Position numbers and translations under genes: made by a program
Shown here: positions 15,515-29,855 of the stretch, piece after piece
Position numbering within the stretch: the first letter of the stretch is position 1
Layout: each line of letters begins with the position of its first letter
Assembly (NCBI GenBank): GCA_009936995.1
Contig: JAACDH010000339.1
Coordinates: forward strand, 1-35,628
Source: Rhodobacterales bacterium
Lineage (GTDB): Bacteria; Myxococcota_A; UBA796; GCA-2862545
Length of the DNA stretch: 35,628 nucleotides
Reading direction: 5' to 3'
The notes under the pieces: generated by a model
What the model was told of the DNA's origin: nothing
Databases searched by the model: none
What the model saw: only the letters and a program-made list of their open reading frames with translations

Positions 15515-17041
<1,527 letters not shown>

Positions 17042-17053
17042 GACAGCTCAATG

Positions 17054-17092
17054 GGGTCCTATACCGGACCCAACTAGGGTCCTTTATCGGAC
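17054..17092 (+). repeat. Tandem hairpin pair between atpA and atpG
   Basis: GGGTCC-TATACC-GGACCC (17054-17071) is a perfect 6-bp inverted repeat. A near copy, GGGTCC-TTTATC-GGAC, starts 23 bases later (17077-17092). No T-tract follows. They sit in a 111-base spacer, unusually long for this tightly packed operon, just where expression must drop from three alpha to one gamma. An attenuator or RNA-processing site is a reasonable inference. Confidence 0.6.
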
Positions 17093-17152
17093 ATCCCCCG
17101 AGGCCCGTTCATCCGGGTCCCGCGTTCCGCCCTCTAAAACAGGCATTGCCCA

Positions 17153-18007
17153 ATGGCGAACCTCAAAGACATCAAGATCCGAATCGGATCGGTCAAGAAG
17201 ACCCGTCAGATCACAGCAGCCATGAAGCTGGTGGCTGGCGCAAAGCTCAAGCGTGCAACCGACGCCGCATTGGCCGCTCGCCCCTACCAGGAGCAGCTGA
17301 CCGAGGTGCTCGGTCGCGTCGCCGCCAAAGCTGGCGACGATAGCGAAGAGCCGCTGCTCACCGCTCGCGAAGAGATCAAGCGAATCCTGGTAGTCTTCCT
17401 CACCAGTGACCGTGGTCTCTGCGGCGGCTTCAACAACAACCTCATGCGCAAGGGCATCGTCTTTCTAGACGAACGCTCCTGTACTGTCGACATCGTCTCC
17501 TACGGCAAAAAAGGAACCGCCTTCCTGAACAGCCGCAAGTTCGAGACGATCAAAAATGTCGAAGACTGGTCCAAGCTCGACAAGGGTGAGTTGGTCCGTG
17601 AGCTCTCGGCCACCGCGGTCGCTGGCTACATTGACGGCAAGTGGGACGAAGTCTGGTTCGCCTTCAATGACTTCGAGTCCGTTCTCACCCAAACGCCTAC
17701 CTTCGAGAAGATGCTCCCCCTCAGCGTCGAGGCTTCGGCCGACGACGCTGGCGGCGACTATCGTTACGAACCCAGCGCACAGCAGATCCTCGGCGAGTTA
17801 CTGCCCCTCTTCGTCCAGACCCTCATTCTTCAGAAATTCCTGGAGACCGAGGCTGGCGAGCATGCTTCTCGCATGACCGCCATGGACTCGGCGACTCGCA
17901 ACGCCGACGACCTTATCGACAGCCTGTCGCTCGAATACAACCGAGCCCGTCAGGCCGCCATTACCACCGAAATCATCGAAATTGTCTCGGGCGCAGCAGC
18001 GCTCTGA
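17153..18007 (+). CDS. atpG: ATP synthase F1 subunit gamma
   Basis: 284 aa. The conserved start ANLKDIKIRIGSVKKTRQIT and AMKLVAGAKL form the first coiled-coil arm, LTSDRGLCGGFN is the central hallmark, and the C-terminal helix carries ESEH-type residues (SRMTAMDSATRNADDLI). It is the rotating shaft of F1. ATG 17153 has only a weak AGG upstream. Confidence 0.97.
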   Translation: MANLKDIKIRIGSVKKTRQITAAMKLVAGAKLKRATDAALAARPYQEQLTEVLGRVAAKAGDDSEEPLLTAREEIKRILVVFLTSDRGLCGGFNNNLMRKGIVFLDERSCTVDIVSYGKKGTAFLNSRKFETIKNVEDWSKLDKGELVRELSATAVAGYIDGKWDEVWFAFNDFESVLTQTPTFEKMLPLSVEASADDAGGDYRYEPSAQQILGELLPLFVQTLILQKFLETEAGEHASRMTAMDSATRNADDLIDSLSLEYNRARQAAITTEIIEIVSGAAAL

Positions 18008-19468
<1,461 letters not shown>

Positions 19469-21007: not shown

Positions 21008-21357
21008 CTACAGGCGTCGTTTTCTCAGTTTCGGGGTTTCGGCGGCAGTGGACGCTGTCGAAACCGGCGTCGGGGGGTTGGATGCTGCCGGCGGCGGCGG
21101 TGGAGCCGCATCAACGCGCCCAATAGGCTCGACGTCGGCCGGCCGGAGGGCGCCCGCCAAAGCCTCGGCGGTGTCGACCGAGCGGTGTCGAACGTCATCG
21201 GCCCACTACCCCTCGTCGGTCGACGGCCTAGCGCCTCCGAAAGCCTCGCCCGCTTGGCGTGAGGCCACCTTGGCTTTGCCCTTTCCGATGTTGAACAGCG
21301 GTTTGAACGCAGATATCTTGCGCTCCGTAGATGAGAAAGCGTAATCGTTCAGCCACC
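21008..21357 (-). pseudogene. Degenerate reading frame with in-frame amber stop
   Basis: The 345-base gap between two genes holds coding-like sequence on the minus strand. From a TAA near 21357 the frame reads ...SSTERKISAFKPLFNIGKG..., meets TAG at 21206-21208, and continues in the same frame with VDTAEALAGALRPADVEPIG, a Pro/Ala tail (APPPPPAASNPP) and PKLRKRR, ending at TAG 21008-21010. There is no plausible start codon, and the 5' part collides with the 3' end of the next gene. It reads as the tail of a decayed gene of unknown family; a real stop-codon read-through is less likely. Confidence 0.35.
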
Positions 21358-23028
21358 ATTACCAGTGACAATCATCACGCCGTCGATGTTTGGGACCCCA
21401 ATGGCGTCAATCATGTCGTCGATGTTGTTTATTGGCAGTGTGACGTTGTCGTGTACCCACAGGTCACCCGTCACCTGCTGCACACTGTGAAGACCCGTCA
21501 CATCCACCAGCTGAGGGTTCGTGCCCAATTGGAGGGTGCCTTCGACCGTCTCGATGGACTGGAAGCCATCGAGGTGAATCATCATCGGGTTCTGCTGGAT
21601 GAACAGGTCCCCATGGACCACCTGCAGCGCCTCGAGGCGCCCTGGTTCCGTCAATCCGGTTCGTACGATACTCAAGGCACCCGCCTCTTCCAGAACATCG
21701 AACGCCGAGATCGACTCGAGCGATGGCAGATCGGTGAGCAGAATTTCGCGCTGCGGAGTACCCGGTTCGCCAGCCAGGCCGACAGAACTGAGAATGCGGA
21801 ACCCCGACAGGAACCGCAGCACCGGATTGTTCGACACCTCGAACTCTTCGGACACCACTGCGATGAAGTCAAATCCGTCGATGCCGTAGAGACTGTCGTT
21901 GTTGTGCAGCCGAATATGCCCACCCACGCGCGTTAGGCGGGTGAAGCCATAGATGGAGGCCAAGGTAGCGTTATCGACCACCTCGAGGCTACCGCCGATC
22001 TCGGTAATATCGACGAAGCCGTACAGGCTTTGGAGTAGCGGATTGTTCTGAAACACCAGGTCGCCACCAATGGATTGCAACTGGTATCCATCGCCGAGAA
22101 TCGAGTGCAATGCTTCATTTCCGACGATACTAAGGCTTCCACCAACCGTCAGGATTCGATCGAGGCTGAGGGTGGACAGCGTGTCATTGTCTTGGACCAC
22201 AAAATCGTGTTCCACTGTGAGTATGCGGCTGGGCCGGAAGTTCTGTAGGACCGTGTTCTCTTGGATCAAAATACTGCCAGCATGCTGCAGAAAGTCGACG
22301 TCGATCTTGATGAGACCGTCATTGTTCGACACGGACAGCGCCCCGCTGACATCGGTGAGTTCTGGCAACAGGAGCGATTCGAGTGCTGTGCTATCGCTGG
22401 CGCGAATATCGGCGCCGACGGTGGTCAAGTTCGGAAAATCAACCGACGAAACCGAACTCATTTCCACCAAAACGCTGCCGGTGACCTCGCACAGGCAGTC
22501 CACCCGAACGTCATCCCCGCCGTTGACCAACAGATCACCGTCGATGCCGTTGTAATCGACGCAGAAGGTGTCGAAGTCGGCTGCCGTTTGCACCACGAAA
22601 TCGCCCGAGTAAAGCCGCCGCTCGCCTTCACAGGGGTCGGGGGATGACTGCACGCCACCCTGCATACCGCAGGTAATCCACTCTTCAATTAAGGCTTTGC
22701 TCTCGTCCGAAACCCCGCCGGCAGGGGGCATATCCCCACCAACTTCAACCGCACGGGCGAGAATTCGATCAGCCCACCCGACCACACCCTCGTAGGTCTC
22801 AAAATCGACACCGATAGGCGCCCCTTGGCGTTGAACATCCTGCAGTTCGCTGTGGTGACACGGTGTGCACCAGGTTCGAAGCCAGGGCTCCGCGTGGTTG
22901 GTCCAGGTGACCAGATTGCCATCAACCGAGCAAGCGCTGGCTGCTCCTACACCGGAATCATCGACGGTCTTGGTGCAAGCAACTCCGAGCGCAAGCCCGA
23001 GCACAGCGAATGGGATCCGATGAGCCAT
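21349..23028 (-). CDS. Lipoprotein with cytochrome c domain and receptor-L-like repeats
   Basis: ATG 23026-23028 (MAHRIPFAVLGLALGVAC) begins two bases after the DUF1501 stop and gives 559 aa with lipobox GVAC (Cys18). Residues 33-125 form a cytochrome c-like domain with CTPCHH (Cys54-Cys57-His58) and a candidate axial Met in GGDMPPAGG. From about 150 on come many imperfect 20-25-residue repeats of the type GSLEVVDNATLASIYGF and GDLVFQNNPLLQSLYGF, which resemble the receptor L domain / right-handed solenoid. I know of no characterised protein with this pairing. It is the last gene of the redox-type cluster and could be its surface-anchored acceptor or docking scaffold. Confidence 0.8.
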   Translation of the reverse strand: MAHRIPFAVLGLALGVACTKTVDDSGVGAASACSVDGNLVTWTNHAEPWLRTWCTPCHHSELQDVQRQGAPIGVDFETYEGVVGWADRILARAVEVGGDMPPAGGVSDESKALIEEWITCGMQGGVQSSPDPCEGERRLYSGDFVVQTAADFDTFCVDYNGIDGDLLVNGGDDVRVDCLCEVTGSVLVEMSSVSSVDFPNLTTVGADIRASDSTALESLLLPELTDVSGALSVSNNDGLIKIDVDFLQHAGSILIQENTVLQNFRPSRILTVEHDFVVQDNDTLSTLSLDRILTVGGSLSIVGNEALHSILGDGYQLQSIGGDLVFQNNPLLQSLYGFVDITEIGGSLEVVDNATLASIYGFTRLTRVGGHIRLHNNDSLYGIDGFDFIAVVSEEFEVSNNPVLRFLSGFRILSSVGLAGEPGTPQREILLTDLPSLESISAFDVLEEAGALSIVRTGLTEPGRLEALQVVHGDLFIQQNPMMIHLDGFQSIETVEGTLQLGTNPQLVDVTGLHSVQQVTGDLWVHDNVTLPINNIDDMIDAIGVPNIDGVMIVTGNGG

Positions 23029-23030
23029 AA

Positions 23031-24326
23031 TCAACTCTGAAACACCCGGAATGGGTCGACCGCTGGGAACCACTCAGCCGGGTCGACGTCTAGGACCTCG
23101 AGAATGCCAGCGCAGAGGTTCTCGTACTTATTGTAGGGCGAGGCGTCGCTAATTACGCCAGTTTCATAATCAATTCCCTTGGACTCCAAGGTGGTGTCGG
23201 TGGTCTCGCCGATCTGAACGCCGCCCCGAATACCAGCGCCCATGAGCAACGCCGAAGTGTGTCCCCAGTGGTCCTTGCCCAGCGACCCGTTCAGCTTGGG
23301 TGTGCGAGTCATTTCGGACACCACGCAGACCAACGTTTCGTTGAGAATCCCTTCATTCTCGAGGGAGGTCATGAGCGACTCCAAACCGACAAAGAGCGCA
23401 TCAAAGTTCGCGTGCTGGGCGGCGTTATACTCATGGGTGTCCCAATCGCGCCGACTGTCGAGCGTGACACTGCGACACAAACCGTTCTTGAGCAAGCTTG
23501 CGGCGATGCTCGCCTGTGTGATGAGCGATGCAGGTGTGCCCAGCGTAAGGTCGCTCAGAATACCGGTAGCCTCGTTGCGAATCCGATCGGCGCGCAGCAC
23601 CGAGATGTCGAAGTCATCAAGACGGCGGTCGTTGATGGTGCTCCCGCCCCGACCTTCGCGAAGCTGCGCGTTGCGAGCCGATAGGTAGCCGGCGACGTCT
23701 TGGTGCTCTTGTTCGCTGCGGGCAAAGAAGGGGTACTGGACGTCACTGAAGGTGGGCGCGTTGAAGTTCGTGGCGGGATCGATCAACGGCTTGATCTGAC
23801 TGTTCGTACCAATACGACCTGCTGACGCGGCTAATGGACCGTTCATCGACCAACCAGACAAGTCGATAGAGCCCAGCGGAAGCTCTGTCCCGTGTACGTA
23901 GCCCACGATGGTAGCCAAATCGGGAGCGGTGTTTTCCATCACGCCGGACAAGATGCGGAAACGACAAGGGTCGTGGGCAATGGAGCCCATCCACACACCG
24001 TTGATGACCGCCATCTTGCTGTGCCACTTCTCGAAGAACGCGGTGGTCCACGGTCGCTTGAACTCGTTGACGTTGATGATGATGCCGCCAAAGGTCTGCA
24101 CATCTTCGGAGTCGAGCGGGTTGTCGGGGTCGAGGTCTTGCTCGGGTCCGTCGATGGCGCTGGTGTGCAGCTTGGAATCGAAGAGTACGGTGACGTCCCA
24201 GCCACCTTCAGCGACCACAACCACCAAATACTTGGCTTTTTCGGTGCCCGCCGCATGGGCCACGGGGGCCAAAGAGACCGAGGCAGCGCTGGACCATAGG
24301 AATTCACGTCGGGAGAGTCTAGACAT
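23031..24326 (-). CDS. DUF1501-family Tat-exported protein
   Basis: ATG 24324-24326 gives 431 aa with a twin-arginine signal at the N-terminus (MSRLSRREFLWSSAASVSLA), followed by an AHAAGT cleavage-type site. The mature protein matches the DUF1501 (sulfatase-like) family: KYLVVVVAEGGWD at the start, INGVWMGSIAHDPC, DTHEYNAAQH, and VVSEMTRTPKLNGSLGKDHWGH, which carry the metal-binding-type Asp/His of alkaline-phosphatase-fold enzymes. These genes travel with DUF1588/DUF1549-type cytochrome genes in planctomycetes and myxobacteria, as here. Substrate unknown. It begins 52 bases after the haem lipoprotein gene. Confidence 0.88.
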   Translation of the reverse strand: MSRLSRREFLWSSAASVSLAPVAHAAGTEKAKYLVVVVAEGGWDVTVLFDSKLHTSAIDGPEQDLDPDNPLDSEDVQTFGGIIINVNEFKRPWTTAFFEKWHSKMAVINGVWMGSIAHDPCRFRILSGVMENTAPDLATIVGYVHGTELPLGSIDLSGWSMNGPLAASAGRIGTNSQIKPLIDPATNFNAPTFSDVQYPFFARSEQEHQDVAGYLSARNAQLREGRGGSTINDRRLDDFDISVLRADRIRNEATGILSDLTLGTPASLITQASIAASLLKNGLCRSVTLDSRRDWDTHEYNAAQHANFDALFVGLESLMTSLENEGILNETLVCVVSEMTRTPKLNGSLGKDHWGHTSALLMGAGIRGGVQIGETTDTTLESKGIDYETGVISDASPYNKYENLCAGILEVLDVDPAEWFPAVDPFRVFQS

Positions 24327-24378
24327 CCTAGTAAAACACCATGCGAGGGTCTTGAAGGAGCGCGGACAGGGTGACCTT

Positions 24379-26130
24379 CTAGGCAGAGCTGGAATTTTGC
24401 TCACGGTCGTAGACCGTCTCCCACAGCCCGTAGGACAAGTTCACAGACTGGCTATCAACACCGACGAACTCGCCGAGGATTCGCTTGTGCAACCAAACCA
24501 ACTGGGACCGGATAGCGGCCTCGTCGGAGGTTTCGGGCTCGACCAACTGCAGCAAGTGGCGCTCGGTGACCGGCATCGAGAAGTCGAACTCGACCACAAA
24601 CCCGGCAGCCTCGTCGGAAGCCATTCCCATGGCCAAGGCCTTGGTGGGCGTCGGGGTGTGAATGGGGCTGGTGACCGTGTATCCGTCAACGCCGCCTTGC
24701 ATGCTCCGGAAGCCGTAGAGGTCGGTGTTTAGCAGGTCGACGGAAAGCCAGCAGTTGTTGCCGCCCGCAGCGCATCCCGACTGGTCTTGATTGGCCAGCC
24801 ACCTAAAGCCGGTGAGGTCGAAGAGGGTCCGGCTATATTGCTCGGGGCGAATTACCTGCATGCCCGGATAGAAGACCTCTGCTTTGGGGTCTTGCAGCAC
24901 ACGGATGGTGGCGAATTCTTCGGACATCACCATCTCGCGAACCATCGCCTTGATGTTGAAGTCGTTCTGAGTGAGCGTTGTCTGATAGTCGCTTGCGACG
25001 TCGAACGGCACAGCCATCCGCTCCATTTGCCCCAAATACCCGTAAAACGTGCGGGCCGTACATTGAGCGAAGCGGTTGTCTCTGGCGATCAGCTCTCCCA
25101 ACTCGGTCATGTTGCGGGCGGGTTCACCGAAGAGTCCGGGCGGCCGCAATCCCCATTCATCCCAAAGGTTTTCGTCGCTGACCACGTAAAAACGAAGGGG
25201 ATAGCACCAATGGTCGATGCGATAGCTGCCCCGGGGAGGCTCGCCCTTGCTCCAGTCCCACTCGCAGCCCACTCGGTAGGCTTCGTTGATGGCGCCACGT
25301 CCCAGTTGCTCTTTGTAGCCCCAGAAGACGGCGGCGATGGGGTCGATGACTTGATGGCAACCGGTGCAGCTCTCTTGGGACATCACCGCGTCGGCGACCT
25401 CGGCGGGGTCGGAGAGGTCCACGCCTCCGAGGACCACCACGTCGCGGTCTGCGATGTCTTCGCACAGGAAGGTGTTCGAGACGAAGTTTGCCCGACCCCG
25501 GTGGAAGTTCTGCGCGTTGCTGACGTGTCGGCGCCACATTTCGGAGTCGGACAGCACACCGGCGTGTGGTCGACCATCCGTCCAGACGGTCTTTTGCCAG
25601 GTTTCACCATCAGCGTCGTATGGCAAGCCATAAATCTCGGACACCACTCGGTCCGCATATGCGTACTGTCCGGTGACGATTTCGGTGTACGGCCGGTCGT
25701 TCATGATCACGTCTTCGACCAAGCGAAGAGGCGCTTCGACCGTAGATTCGTGTAGGTCGATCTGATCGTATTCCAGGTCTTCGAGGACGCCCTGGACCGG
25801 CAGCTGGAAGGTCGTGTCGGCACGAACCAAATACAGCTCGGCGTGGAGGTCGCGTACCGTCTCACCGAATTCGTAGCTGGCGAGGTAGGTATCGACAAGA
25901 TCGTCGATGGCCCTAGGATCGTCATGTACCCGGTCGAGGTCGGCGACGCTGGGGCGAATGCCGCGAACGGCCATTGACACCCGCAACAAGCGGTCGGTAG
26001 ACGACAGGTGCTCGATCTGCGGGTCTTGGATGCCGTCAACATCCTCTATGGCTTGGTCTTTGCCACAACCCGAAAGCGTGAGTTCACCTGCACAAAGCGC
26101 CGCTAAAATCCAGTGTGCACGTACGTTCAT
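24379..26130 (-). CDS. DUF1588/DUF1549-like haem lipoprotein
   Basis: ATG 26128-26130 overlaps the upstream stop (ATGA) with AGGAAG before it; 583 aa. Lipobox LSGC sits at Cys22. The N-terminal half (DRLLRVSMAVRGIRPSVADL, DDPRAIDDLVDTYLAS) resembles DUF1549, and the FLCEDI...SCTGCHQVIDP stretch (Cys255-Cys258-His259) the DUF1588 module, where CxxCH suggests a covalent c-type haem. A long C-terminal region (LFDLTGFRWLANQ, TKALAMGMASDEAAGFVVEF) resembles the matching parts of planctomycete-type cytochrome proteins. It would be a lipid-anchored electron carrier or oxidase partner of the DUF1501 protein. Confidence 0.82.
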   Translation of the reverse strand: MNVRAHWILAALCAGELTLSGCGKDQAIEDVDGIQDPQIEHLSSTDRLLRVSMAVRGIRPSVADLDRVHDDPRAIDDLVDTYLASYEFGETVRDLHAELYLVRADTTFQLPVQGVLEDLEYDQIDLHESTVEAPLRLVEDVIMNDRPYTEIVTGQYAYADRVVSEIYGLPYDADGETWQKTVWTDGRPHAGVLSDSEMWRRHVSNAQNFHRGRANFVSNTFLCEDIADRDVVVLGGVDLSDPAEVADAVMSQESCTGCHQVIDPIAAVFWGYKEQLGRGAINEAYRVGCEWDWSKGEPPRGSYRIDHWCYPLRFYVVSDENLWDEWGLRPPGLFGEPARNMTELGELIARDNRFAQCTARTFYGYLGQMERMAVPFDVASDYQTTLTQNDFNIKAMVREMVMSEEFATIRVLQDPKAEVFYPGMQVIRPEQYSRTLFDLTGFRWLANQDQSGCAAGGNNCWLSVDLLNTDLYGFRSMQGGVDGYTVTSPIHTPTPTKALAMGMASDEAAGFVVEFDFSMPVTERHLLQLVEPETSDEAAIRSQLVWLHKRILGEFVGVDSQSVNLSYGLWETVYDREQNSSSA

Positions 26131-27533
26131 TGACTTCCTACAACCGGAACCACGCCCACCATTCCCAGACACATCTCGTCCAGGGTAGACACCCCAAAGA
26201 GGACATCGACGGGTACTCGAGGCATTCCTTCGTCTTCCAGAGCCTGCATCCAGAGCTCATTGTCGACGTTGTTATTATAGGTACAGCGCAAACGGATCGT
26301 GTCGCCACCCCGCATTATTGGTGCCTGGCCAGACATCGCGGCGTAGTAGAAGAACGCCTGCCATCCGAAGTCGTAGCGCGGTGTGCACAGCAAACACTCG
26401 ACAAGGGGCTCACCAGGAGCGGCGAATTCCGGCTGATGTTCAACCCACATCCGCATGTCCGTTCCGACATAGTGCATGTGATTCGTCAGCATGAAAGCAC
26501 GAAATTCTGAGCTCGGAGAGCCGGGAACCCTGTAGACCATCTCTTCGGTGTGGTCGTAGGTATTGGCCGGAATGTAGAAGACGGGCACGCCCAGATCGTT
26601 GGGACCGGGAAGCAGCCCTTGACTCGCGTTTCGCGCATCGCCCACGCGGTAAATCTCAGGCTGTAGCGCGGGCTCTTCACCGAAACGAAGCCGTAGACGG
26701 GTTTTGTCGGTGTGAGGCTCGTCGTTGTCGACGTGGTAGTGAATCTGCATGGTGATGCGGGACGAGCGGGTGACCTCGACGGCCACATCAGCGGGCATTT
26801 CGACCGGTAAAGTACCCGGCAACCAGCCTGCAAAATCGATTCCACCCAGCCCGCCAATTCCCGTGCAGTCGAAATATCCAAGCTGGTTGAGCTGGCTATC
26901 GATACTCTCATCGGGAAAGATTTGAACCTGGATGTGATGAGTGACCGTAGCGTCTTCCGGCAACACCTCAAGGGCGTTGAGCCAAATTGCGTCTTCGCCA
27001 GTCTCAAACCAAGATTCGGGGATGGGCATTGCCCAACAAATGGCCAAATCTCCCCGTGTAGGCGAGTACCCGTTTTCCGGTTCAATCTCGTGCGTGTAGT
27101 CCAACAATGACGCCGAGGGTGGTGACTCGATGGGGGCTGCGGAAGAGGCGTCGCCCAGAGGAGCGCCACAGGCGTGCCACCGAGTGAGCGTGTCAATGTC
27201 GGACTTCGCAAGCCTCCGGTCGTGAATGAGCGGGAAACGCTCAGGGCAATCGCCTTCGAAGTCCGCGATAAAGGGCGGCATGGTCCGAGCCGACACTTCA
27301 TCTGCGATAAGAGCCGACCAGGGCTGACTTTGCTCGTAGGTAAGCAACGGCCTATAAGCGGCGATCTGACCTTCGGAGTGGCAGCCAGAGCAGTTCGGCC
27401 CGATGATCGGCGCCACATCCTGGTGCCATGTAGGAGACTGCGCGCAGTCCAAACCCGTGTCTTGAACGGACCCACCACAGCTGTACAACAGGGATGACAA
27501 CGTCGCAATTGCGATGCGGGTACGGACGGACAT
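26127..27533 (-). CDS. Copper monooxygenase-like lipoprotein with cytochrome-type haem site
   Basis: ATG 27531-27533 is set by AAGGAG seven bases upstream (27540-27545); 468 aa, lipobox LYSC (Cys19). The N-terminal part carries NCSGCHSEG (Cys48-Cys51-His52), a c-haem attachment site. Then come hallmarks of the type II ascorbate-dependent copper monooxygenases (PHM/DBM fold): THHIQVQIF (His199-His200), MQIHYHVD (His265, His267), NHMHYVG (His352, His354), the DTIRLRCTYNNN strand and the DEMC motif (about 451-454). Known members hydroxylate organic substrates using copper and an external electron donor; here the haem domain could supply electrons. First gene of the cluster. Confidence 0.88.
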   Translation of the reverse strand: MSVRTRIAIATLSSLLYSCGGSVQDTGLDCAQSPTWHQDVAPIIGPNCSGCHSEGQIAAYRPLLTYEQSQPWSALIADEVSARTMPPFIADFEGDCPERFPLIHDRRLAKSDIDTLTRWHACGAPLGDASSAAPIESPPSASLLDYTHEIEPENGYSPTRGDLAICWAMPIPESWFETGEDAIWLNALEVLPEDATVTHHIQVQIFPDESIDSQLNQLGYFDCTGIGGLGGIDFAGWLPGTLPVEMPADVAVEVTRSSRITMQIHYHVDNDEPHTDKTRLRLRFGEEPALQPEIYRVGDARNASQGLLPGPNDLGVPVFYIPANTYDHTEEMVYRVPGSPSSEFRAFMLTNHMHYVGTDMRMWVEHQPEFAAPGEPLVECLLCTPRYDFGWQAFFYYAAMSGQAPIMRGGDTIRLRCTYNNNVDNELWMQALEDEGMPRVPVDVLFGVSTLDEMCLGMVGVVPVVGSQ

Positions 27534-27546
27534 TCGGAGCTCCTTC

Positions 27547-27563
27547 TGCGTACTTAGCACGCA
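27547..27563 (-). promoter_or_regulatory. Inverted repeat just upstream of the copper-monooxygenase ribosome-binding site
   Basis: TGCGT (27547-27551), a 7-base spacer, ACGCA (27559-27563). It lies between the parA terminator and the AAGGAG at 27540-27545, 14 bases from the ATG at 27533. An operator or a message hairpin is possible; there is no proof of either. Confidence 0.35.
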
Positions 27564-27598
27564 AAAAGGCAGACCCGCAATGGTCCCGTTGCCTCTGC
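27563..27598 (-). terminator. Terminator of parA
   Basis: Read on the minus strand: GCAGA-G-GCAA-cgggacca-TTGC-GGG-TCTGC followed by C and TTTTT (27563-27567). Two stacked stems with an internal bulge and a T-tract, 10 bases after the parA stop. It separates parA from the redox-type cluster. Confidence 0.65.
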
Positions 27599-28535: not shown

Positions 28536-29855
28536 CTACCTCACCGAGATGCGAACCACCGCTTTCACATTGGCACATGGCCCCCCAGGGCCCGCATCCC
28601 CGGGAATCATCAGCCGGTACGGCCCGCCCTTCTTGTTCGGCAGCGGCGCACCGTCTAAGCTGTGCAAGAGGAGGGCTTGCTGTAAATCGGCGAGGGCCAC
28701 CGGCTCGGTGGTGAAGCCGTCGGCGGCCACCACGACCGCATTCCCCTCGTGCGGAGCGCCGGCGGCTTTTAGCAACGCGGCCAACGTCACCGCCGCCCCC
28801 TCGCGACCCGGCAGCCGATCCGACACATCGTCGATGCCATCGGGTAGGGCAAGCAATGAAGCGCGGTCGAAGCGTCGATTATCGCCGTTGGGCAACGCCA
28901 CTTCTAGGGCGTCTGCCGCTTGCTGAAGCTCATCTTCTCGAAGCAGGGCCTCTTGAAATTGCGCCCGGAAGACAGCTTGTCGCTCCGCACTCTCGGCGCC
29001 ACGTGCGATCACGTCCACTCGGGTATCTCGACGGTATCCGGTGGTGCGCTCGTGGAGTTCGCCTCCGCTGTGCTCCATCCGGGACCACCCCTCGTCCGTG
29101 CGAAACACCCCCTTGATACGGGCAATTCCGTGGCCCGGCCGACTCAACAAAACACGCAAACGACCGCGAGAAAACACCGACGCTGGCCCCCAAACCATAC
29201 TGGTCACGCCGTGATCTTGGTCATGGCGGTGGTGGTGCTGGTGGCGTACCGCACGAGGCCCCTGCCCTTCGGCCCAATCCAAGACGTCTTTCGGGAGATT
29301 TCCGTGGGTCGCGTGTAGCGTGAGCATGGGCTTGGGCCAGAGGTTTTGCGCCCAGGAGGAGAAGTGCGCGAGCGACGCGGGACTGGCGAGATCGACGCGG
29401 TTCGCCACCAAGATATCGGCGACCTGGGCTTGATCGGACACCTGGCCATCGGTTTCGGCGAGCAGGACCTCGGGGTCGACCAAGACCACCAGCGGGCGGA
29501 GAGAGAGCTGGTCAGCGTAGGGAGCGCGGCGCAGGGTGTCGATGAGATCGGCGGGACGCGCGAGTCCAGTGGGCTCGACCAGGATGCGATCGATGGTCGG
29601 ATCGTGAAGCAGAGACGCCACGGCGCCCACGAACCCCTCGGGAGCGGTGCAGCAGACGCAGCCACCTCGGATCTCGCGTACGGTGCCCACGTTGGCGCCC
29701 TTGCCCTGAAGCGTGAGCTCGTCGAGGGAGCTGGTGCCAAAATCGTTGACCACTACCGCAACGCGCTCGTTGGGGAGCATGGCGAGAATTGCTACCATCG
29801 CCGTGGTTTTTCCGACGCCAAGGTAGCCGCCGATGACGTGTACAGGAATGCTCAT
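28536..29855 (-). CDS. COG0523 (CobW-type) GTPase fused to SUOX-like domain
   Basis: 439 aa, with GGAGG before ATG 29853-29855. G3E GTPase part: P-loop GYLGVGKT (10-17), CxCC metal motif GCVCC (65-69), EPTGLARP (94-101) and NRVD (152-155). A His-rich stretch RHQHHHRHDQDH (204-215) links to a CobW C-terminal-like domain (about 218-310). These features mark metal-insertion or metal-chaperone GTPases. The last 120 residues are extra: ALEVALPNGDNRRF, then VVVAADGFTTEPVALADLQQAL, LDGAPLPNKKGGPYRLMIPG and NVKAVVRI, which fit the sulfite-oxidase (molybdopterin-oxidoreductase) fold. No catalytic Cys is evident there. The fusion suggests metal delivery to a pterin- or molybdenum-type partner. Confidence 0.85.
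   Translation of the reverse strand: MSIPVHVIGGYLGVGKTTAMVAILAMLPNERVAVVVNDFGTSSLDELTLQGKGANVGTVREIRGGCVCCTAPEGFVGAVASLLHDPTIDRILVEPTGLARPADLIDTLRRAPYADQLSLRPLVVLVDPEVLLAETDGQVSDQAQVADILVANRVDLASPASLAHFSSWAQNLWPKPMLTLHATHGNLPKDVLDWAEGQGPRAVRHQHHHRHDQDHGVTSMVWGPASVFSRGRLRVLLSRPGHGIARIKGVFRTDEGWSRMEHSGGELHERTTGYRRDTRVDVIARGAESAERQAVFRAQFQEALLREDELQQAADALEVALPNGDNRRFDRASLLALPDGIDDVSDRLPGREGAAVTLAALLKAAGAPHEGNAVVVAADGFTTEPVALADLQQALLLHSLDGAPLPNKKGGPYRLMIPGDAGPGGPCANVKAVVRISVR

Follow-up and report, generated by a model that had tools for sequence, protein, structure and literature searches.

The window, by which we mean the whole 35,628-nucleotide stretch of DNA analysed, carries on its minus strand (21349-27533) four co-directional genes in the order PHM-like, DUF1588-like, DUF1501 and cytochrome plus L-domain. 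An ORF check confirmed that they are consecutive, with spacings of -4, 52 and 2 bases as in the original prediction, and the PHM-like gene and core gene 1 overlap by ATGA. The features of the locus are as follows:

27571..27586, minus strand: terminator-like stem with a T-run, between the upstream ParA-like gene and the PHM-like gene
26127..27533, minus strand: PHM-like lipoprotein, an N-terminal mono-haem cytochrome c domain with type II copper monooxygenase domains; accessory gene
24379..26130, minus strand: DUF1588/DUF1585/DUF1592-like helical haem lipoprotein (C269xxCH273), core gene 1
24328..24378, minus strand: conserved C-terminal tail of core gene 1, past an in-frame stop; KVTLSALLQDPRMVFY then TAG
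23031..24326, minus strand: DUF1501 protein with an invariant Tat RR and an alkaline-phosphatase/sulfatase-like predicted fold, core gene 2
21349..23028, minus strand: lipoprotein in which a repeated Receptor L-domain-like array is joined to a mono-haem cytochrome c domain (C69xxCH73, M115); core gene 3

Genes were called by a simple ORF rule and checked where important, and the ATG starts of the four cluster genes were confirmed; residue numbers of the PHM-like protein count from a GTG at 27560, its ATG start being at 27533. The terminator-like element is consistent with a cluster that starts at the PHM-like gene, such sites being no commoner than in shuffled sequence. The export signals and haem sites claimed for the four proteins also stood up: all members of the three lipoprotein families keep the lipobox Cys (PHM-like C28, 33/33; DUF1588-like C36, 42/42; cytochrome plus L-domain C33, 28/28), R32 and R33 of the DUF1501 Tat signal are invariant (39/39), and the three CxxCH sites of the lipoproteins lie, in the same order, at C57-H61, C269-H273 and C69-H73. 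Elsewhere in the window, an ORF for a CobW-type GTPase (28536-29855) has a C-terminal match to a molybdopterin oxidoreductase domain, an unusual fusion, and the F-type ATP synthase alpha, gamma and beta genes are consecutive at 15515-19468, the beta ORF also matching a V/A-type C-terminal model.

The conservation of the cluster was examined at 49 core loci in 13 genomes, namely the window's own and 12 relatives. The proposal that all four families co-occur held for the three core genes and was weak for the PHM-like gene, which is directly upstream at only 2 of the 49 cores, and a conserved four-gene operon was rejected on this ground. The natural unit is three genes, a DUF1588/PSD-like haem lipoprotein followed by DUF1501 and a cytochrome c lipoprotein. 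In the window's own genome (a 724-contig draft, 78% complete, of a lineage placed as myxobacteria-like), the DUF1588-like, DUF1501 and cytochrome plus L-domain genes are found intact and in this order five times (contigs C72, which holds the window, C306, C663, C629 and C351), and incomplete versions lie on C190 and C444. The DUF1588-like and DUF1501 genes are adjacent at 44/49 loci by a strict script and at about 47 on inspection, DUF1501 having been missed by the script at L134 and L139, where it is present, and at L121, where it is divergent; at L116 and L119, core gene 1 is directly followed by the cytochrome gene, without DUF1501. A cytochrome gene takes the third place at 34/49 loci by script (about 36 on inspection), and nine of the 49 cores have none despite room for it. 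Of the 63 genomes of the order, 13 have the core; most cores belong to the window's own family, and two other families contribute single copies. Further afield in the phylum, distant families carry it too, with a small cytochrome gene in third place (L216, L217). In one genus, both genomes have a contig with a pair of complete cores arranged tail to tail (G016:C89:36000-46500 and G004:C5:10600-21000).

Across the paralogues, pairwise identities of the core parts rise and fall together. In 24 complete units, the correlation was r=0.82 between the DUF1588-like and DUF1501 proteins, r=0.65 between the DUF1588-like protein and the cytochrome, and 0.43 for the L-domain array, and none of 2000 permutations was as high. 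Since linkage alone could produce such a correlation, it shows inheritance as a block, not interaction. A comparison with the whole third gene gave a weak correlation (r=0.2) because rows without an L array were mixed in, and this was resolved by splitting the cytochrome from the array.

The window protein of core gene 1, taken alone, is below the Pfam cut-offs for both PSCyt3/DUF1588 (23.9 against 27 bits) and PSD2/DUF1585 (20.3 against 25.8); the DUF1588 label stands at the family level, where 31 of 42 members match PSCyt3 and PSD2 at E<=0.01 (best 4e-10, for PSD2). Weak DUF1800 matches were seen in 11 of the 42. The CxxCH (C269, C272, H273) is invariant in all 42 members, among which no other His or Met is conserved at >=85%, the start Met aside, so the haem may lack a distal ligand from the protein and would be a candidate reactive site. 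The structure model has a pLDDT of 90, and a fold search with it against the PDB returned nothing at E<=0.001.

In the window, the reading frame of core gene 1 is closed by a TAG at a codon for which 41/41 aligned relatives have Trp. Past this in-frame TAG, there are 16 codons of conserved tail (ALLQDPRMVFY), closed by another TAG that is separated from the DUF1501 ATG by one base; the stretch from the first TAG to the second spans 24328-24381. The in-frame TAG thus explains the 52-base gap, which, judging from these aligned sequences, is not the usual spacing between core gene 1 and DUF1501. It may be a recent nonsense variant, an error of the assembly consensus or a site of read-through.

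The second core protein matches DUF1501 (PF07394) with 84.9 bits against a cut-off of 27. A PDB search with its sequence found nothing; its structure model, with a pLDDT of 88, has sulfatases, LtaS and YejM as matches (probability ~1.00, TM scores near 0.4), and an alkaline-phosphatase/sulfatase fold is therefore predicted. The metal-type residues D70, D322, H324 and H379 are invariant (39/39), and D378 is present in 38/39. Also invariant in all 39 is His144, in a motif H-x-x-C-R-x-R-x-L-T-G that parallels the sulfatase signature C/S-x-P-x-R-x-x-x-x-T-G. By motif and predicted topology, the Cys/Ser nucleophile of the S1 sulfatases is absent, and His144 apparently occupies its place at the start of the nucleophile-carrying helix. 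This register was not reproduced by a global hhalign alignment to sulfatases (probability 19%), which put the nucleophile elsewhere. In the window's own genome (G000), weak DUF1501 matches lie inside true sulfatase (PF00884) genes on contigs C510, C690, C246, C426 and C237, a sequence-level link between the two families.

The third core protein has a Receptor L domain (PF01030; 44.5 bits against a cut-off of 21.8), as do 26 of 28 members of its family, and its CxxCH and distal M115 are invariant (28/28). At L216, L217, G042, G014, G018, G003 and C444, the third gene instead encodes a small lipoprotein that has a mono-haem cytochrome and lacks L domains, and L domains on their own are common across the phylum; the third protein of the window is thus a fusion of such a cytochrome with a widespread surface-repeat array. 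This array changes fastest of all parts of the unit, with a median identity of 0.30 against 0.41-0.43 for the others. An invariant Met beside CxxCH, in this domain as in that of the PHM-like protein, is a pattern like that of electron-transfer cytochromes. Such invariant His/Met domains, and the two or three mono-haem lipoproteins in each cluster, could speak for dissimilatory electron transfer to extracellular acceptors, with DUF1501 and the L domains merely structural. We consider this very improbable, as no multihaem cytochrome or porin turned up in the clusters, and the conserved D70, D322, H324 and H379 of DUF1501 suggest chemistry rather than structure.

The accessory protein of the window has no Pfam match on its own, and its PHM-like assignment is likewise secured at the family level: a profile built from 33 relatives recovers solved PHM (E=8e-14), and 32 of the 33 match Cu2_monoox_C at E<=0.1. 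The original prediction would have been refuted by loss of the copper ligands or CxxCH motifs among homologues, and all proved invariant in their families. The six copper ligands H208, H209 and H274, and H361, H363 and M463 (assigned to CuH and CuM by motif order), and the CxxCH and distal M94 of the cytochrome domain, are each conserved in 33/33. The fused cytochrome is general to this PHM family and not peculiar to the cluster; a literature search for cytochrome-fused bacterial PHM found none.

Is the PHM-like gene a functional partner of the core? Only two cores, that of the window and L115 (G013:C101), have it directly upstream, and they share an identical four-gene order. PHM genes occur in 56 of the 63 genomes of the order against 13 with a core, five other PHM paralogues of the window's own genome are not beside any core, and no PHM gene precedes L103/L104, the two cores most closely related to that of the window, all of which would fit a common gene that neighbours the trio by chance, without a functional link to it. 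We hold this to be somewhat unlikely. Besides the ATGA overlap and the order shared with L115, a PHM gene lies within a co-directional cluster of five in G016:C89 (FG-GAP/UnbV, DUF1588-like, DUF1501, arylsulfotransferase and PHM), and G016 and G004 have two further PHM genes at 1.5-2.7 kb from a core. In all, five PHM genes were observed at a distance of 3 kb or less from a core, against 0.45 expected (naive P 1e-4), in three genera, a count that includes the window that prompted the analysis and two genomes of one genus; the enrichment is suggestive. The core-linked PHMs also all fall within one seven-row PHM subclade (support 84), with the order within it unresolved. In the tree, the cores of the window and of G013 do not group as sisters, which favours chance, and led us to reject a single inheritance of PHM and core together; with the core-linked PHMs in one subclade, it implies that the link was gained or lost repeatedly. 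Because PHM is absent beside most cores, the closest two relatives included, it is not required for core function, and it is an add-on to the core that was joined in the window copy. At other cores, the upstream place is taken by an arylsulfotransferase (L032, L118, L125) or a lectin-like protein (L035), and in G016 by the FG-GAP/UnbV gene.

Hence, we see in the cluster an exported three-protein module, inherited as a block and multiplied within the family, which PHM has joined here, and for which redox processing of an extracellular polymer at the cell surface is the likeliest function, one that we propose tentatively. The L-domain array would hold or recognise the extracellular substrate, probably a glycan, and DUF1501 would supply a metal site of the alkaline-phosphatase/sulfatase type, binding or acting on a phosphate or sulfate ester without the normal nucleophile. 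The DUF1588-like protein, with no conserved distal His or Met, would provide a reactive haem, with which the His/Met cytochrome would exchange electrons. The optional PHM may hydroxylate substrates of the same class and be supplied by the cytochrome domain fused to it.

A serious rival, though in our judgement an unlikely one, is that the core builds, modifies or anchors a surface polymer of the cell itself rather than processing a foreign substrate. Bacterial chitin synthase genes occur in operons with DUF1800-DUF1501 pairs (PMC5122149); LtaS and YejM, envelope enzymes of the same superfamily, are among the matches of the DUF1501 model; and arylsulfotransferase genes adjoin several cores. However, no glycosyltransferase was identified beside the cores, whose flanks are partly annotated, and the many copies with a fast-changing L array (0.30 against 0.41-0.43) suggest varied external targets. 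A further reading is a modular and diversified surface system, in which every copy would pair the conserved redox/metal core with a rapidly changing L-domain reader, and the effector encoded upstream would be exchangeable (a copper monooxygenase, an arylsulfotransferase, an FG-GAP/UnbV protein or a lectin-like one). This is quite unlikely in our estimate; if true, each copy would have its own extracellular target.

The cluster is a new form of the PSCyt/PSD-DUF1501 (and DUF1800-DUF1501) class, pairs that are numerous in some bacteria and have been described without a known function (PMC5615132, PMC5122149). The PSCyt/PSD proteins are exported haem proteins of Planctomycetes and Verrucomicrobia, with many paralogues and adjoining conserved uncharacterised genes, and are sometimes fused to carbohydrate-binding domains (PMC5615132, PMC2754498); Rhodopirellula baltica has 41 PSD1/PSC2 genes (PMC2754498). 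Conserved gene clusters that contain DUF1501 are on record for such bacteria (PMC4452313), and DUF1501 also forms operon pairs with DUF1800, some of them beside chitin synthase genes (PMC5122149). Core gene 1 resembles the PSCyt/PSD families (DUF1549, DUF1553, DUF1588, DUF1592) in its weak matches, exported haem and many paralogues. In contrast to these systems, the window's host belongs to another phylum, and the extra cytochrome and the recognition part are on a separate third lipoprotein, the latter as an L-domain array. With the DUF1800-DUF1501 pairs, the cluster shares a helical exported protein and a Tat-exported DUF1501 in one operon (PMC5122149), whereas here core gene 1 encodes a lipobox protein with a CxxCH, and the pair is followed by a cytochrome gene. 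The separate cytochrome/recognition protein and the co-occurring copper monooxygenase and arylsulfotransferase genes give a concrete handle on substrate and chemistry.

The individual proteins also depart from their nearest known relatives. DUF1501 is like the S1 sulfatases and the alkaline-phosphatase superfamily in predicted fold and metal-type Asp/His, but would have His144 in place of the Cys/Ser nucleophile, an assignment by topology and motif with which the profile alignment disagrees. The PHM-like protein is like PHM/DBH in its full set of copper ligands, two-domain order and profile match to PHM, but is bacterial and carries an N-terminal cytochrome c domain and a lipobox. Among its homologues, those at L108:2435-5056, L111:1023-3662 and L107:3553-6114 are about 850-880 aa long; a lamin-tail-like (LTD) domain follows the copper domains in L107 and L111, and the L108 gene adjoins one for an FG-GAP/UnbV lipoprotein.
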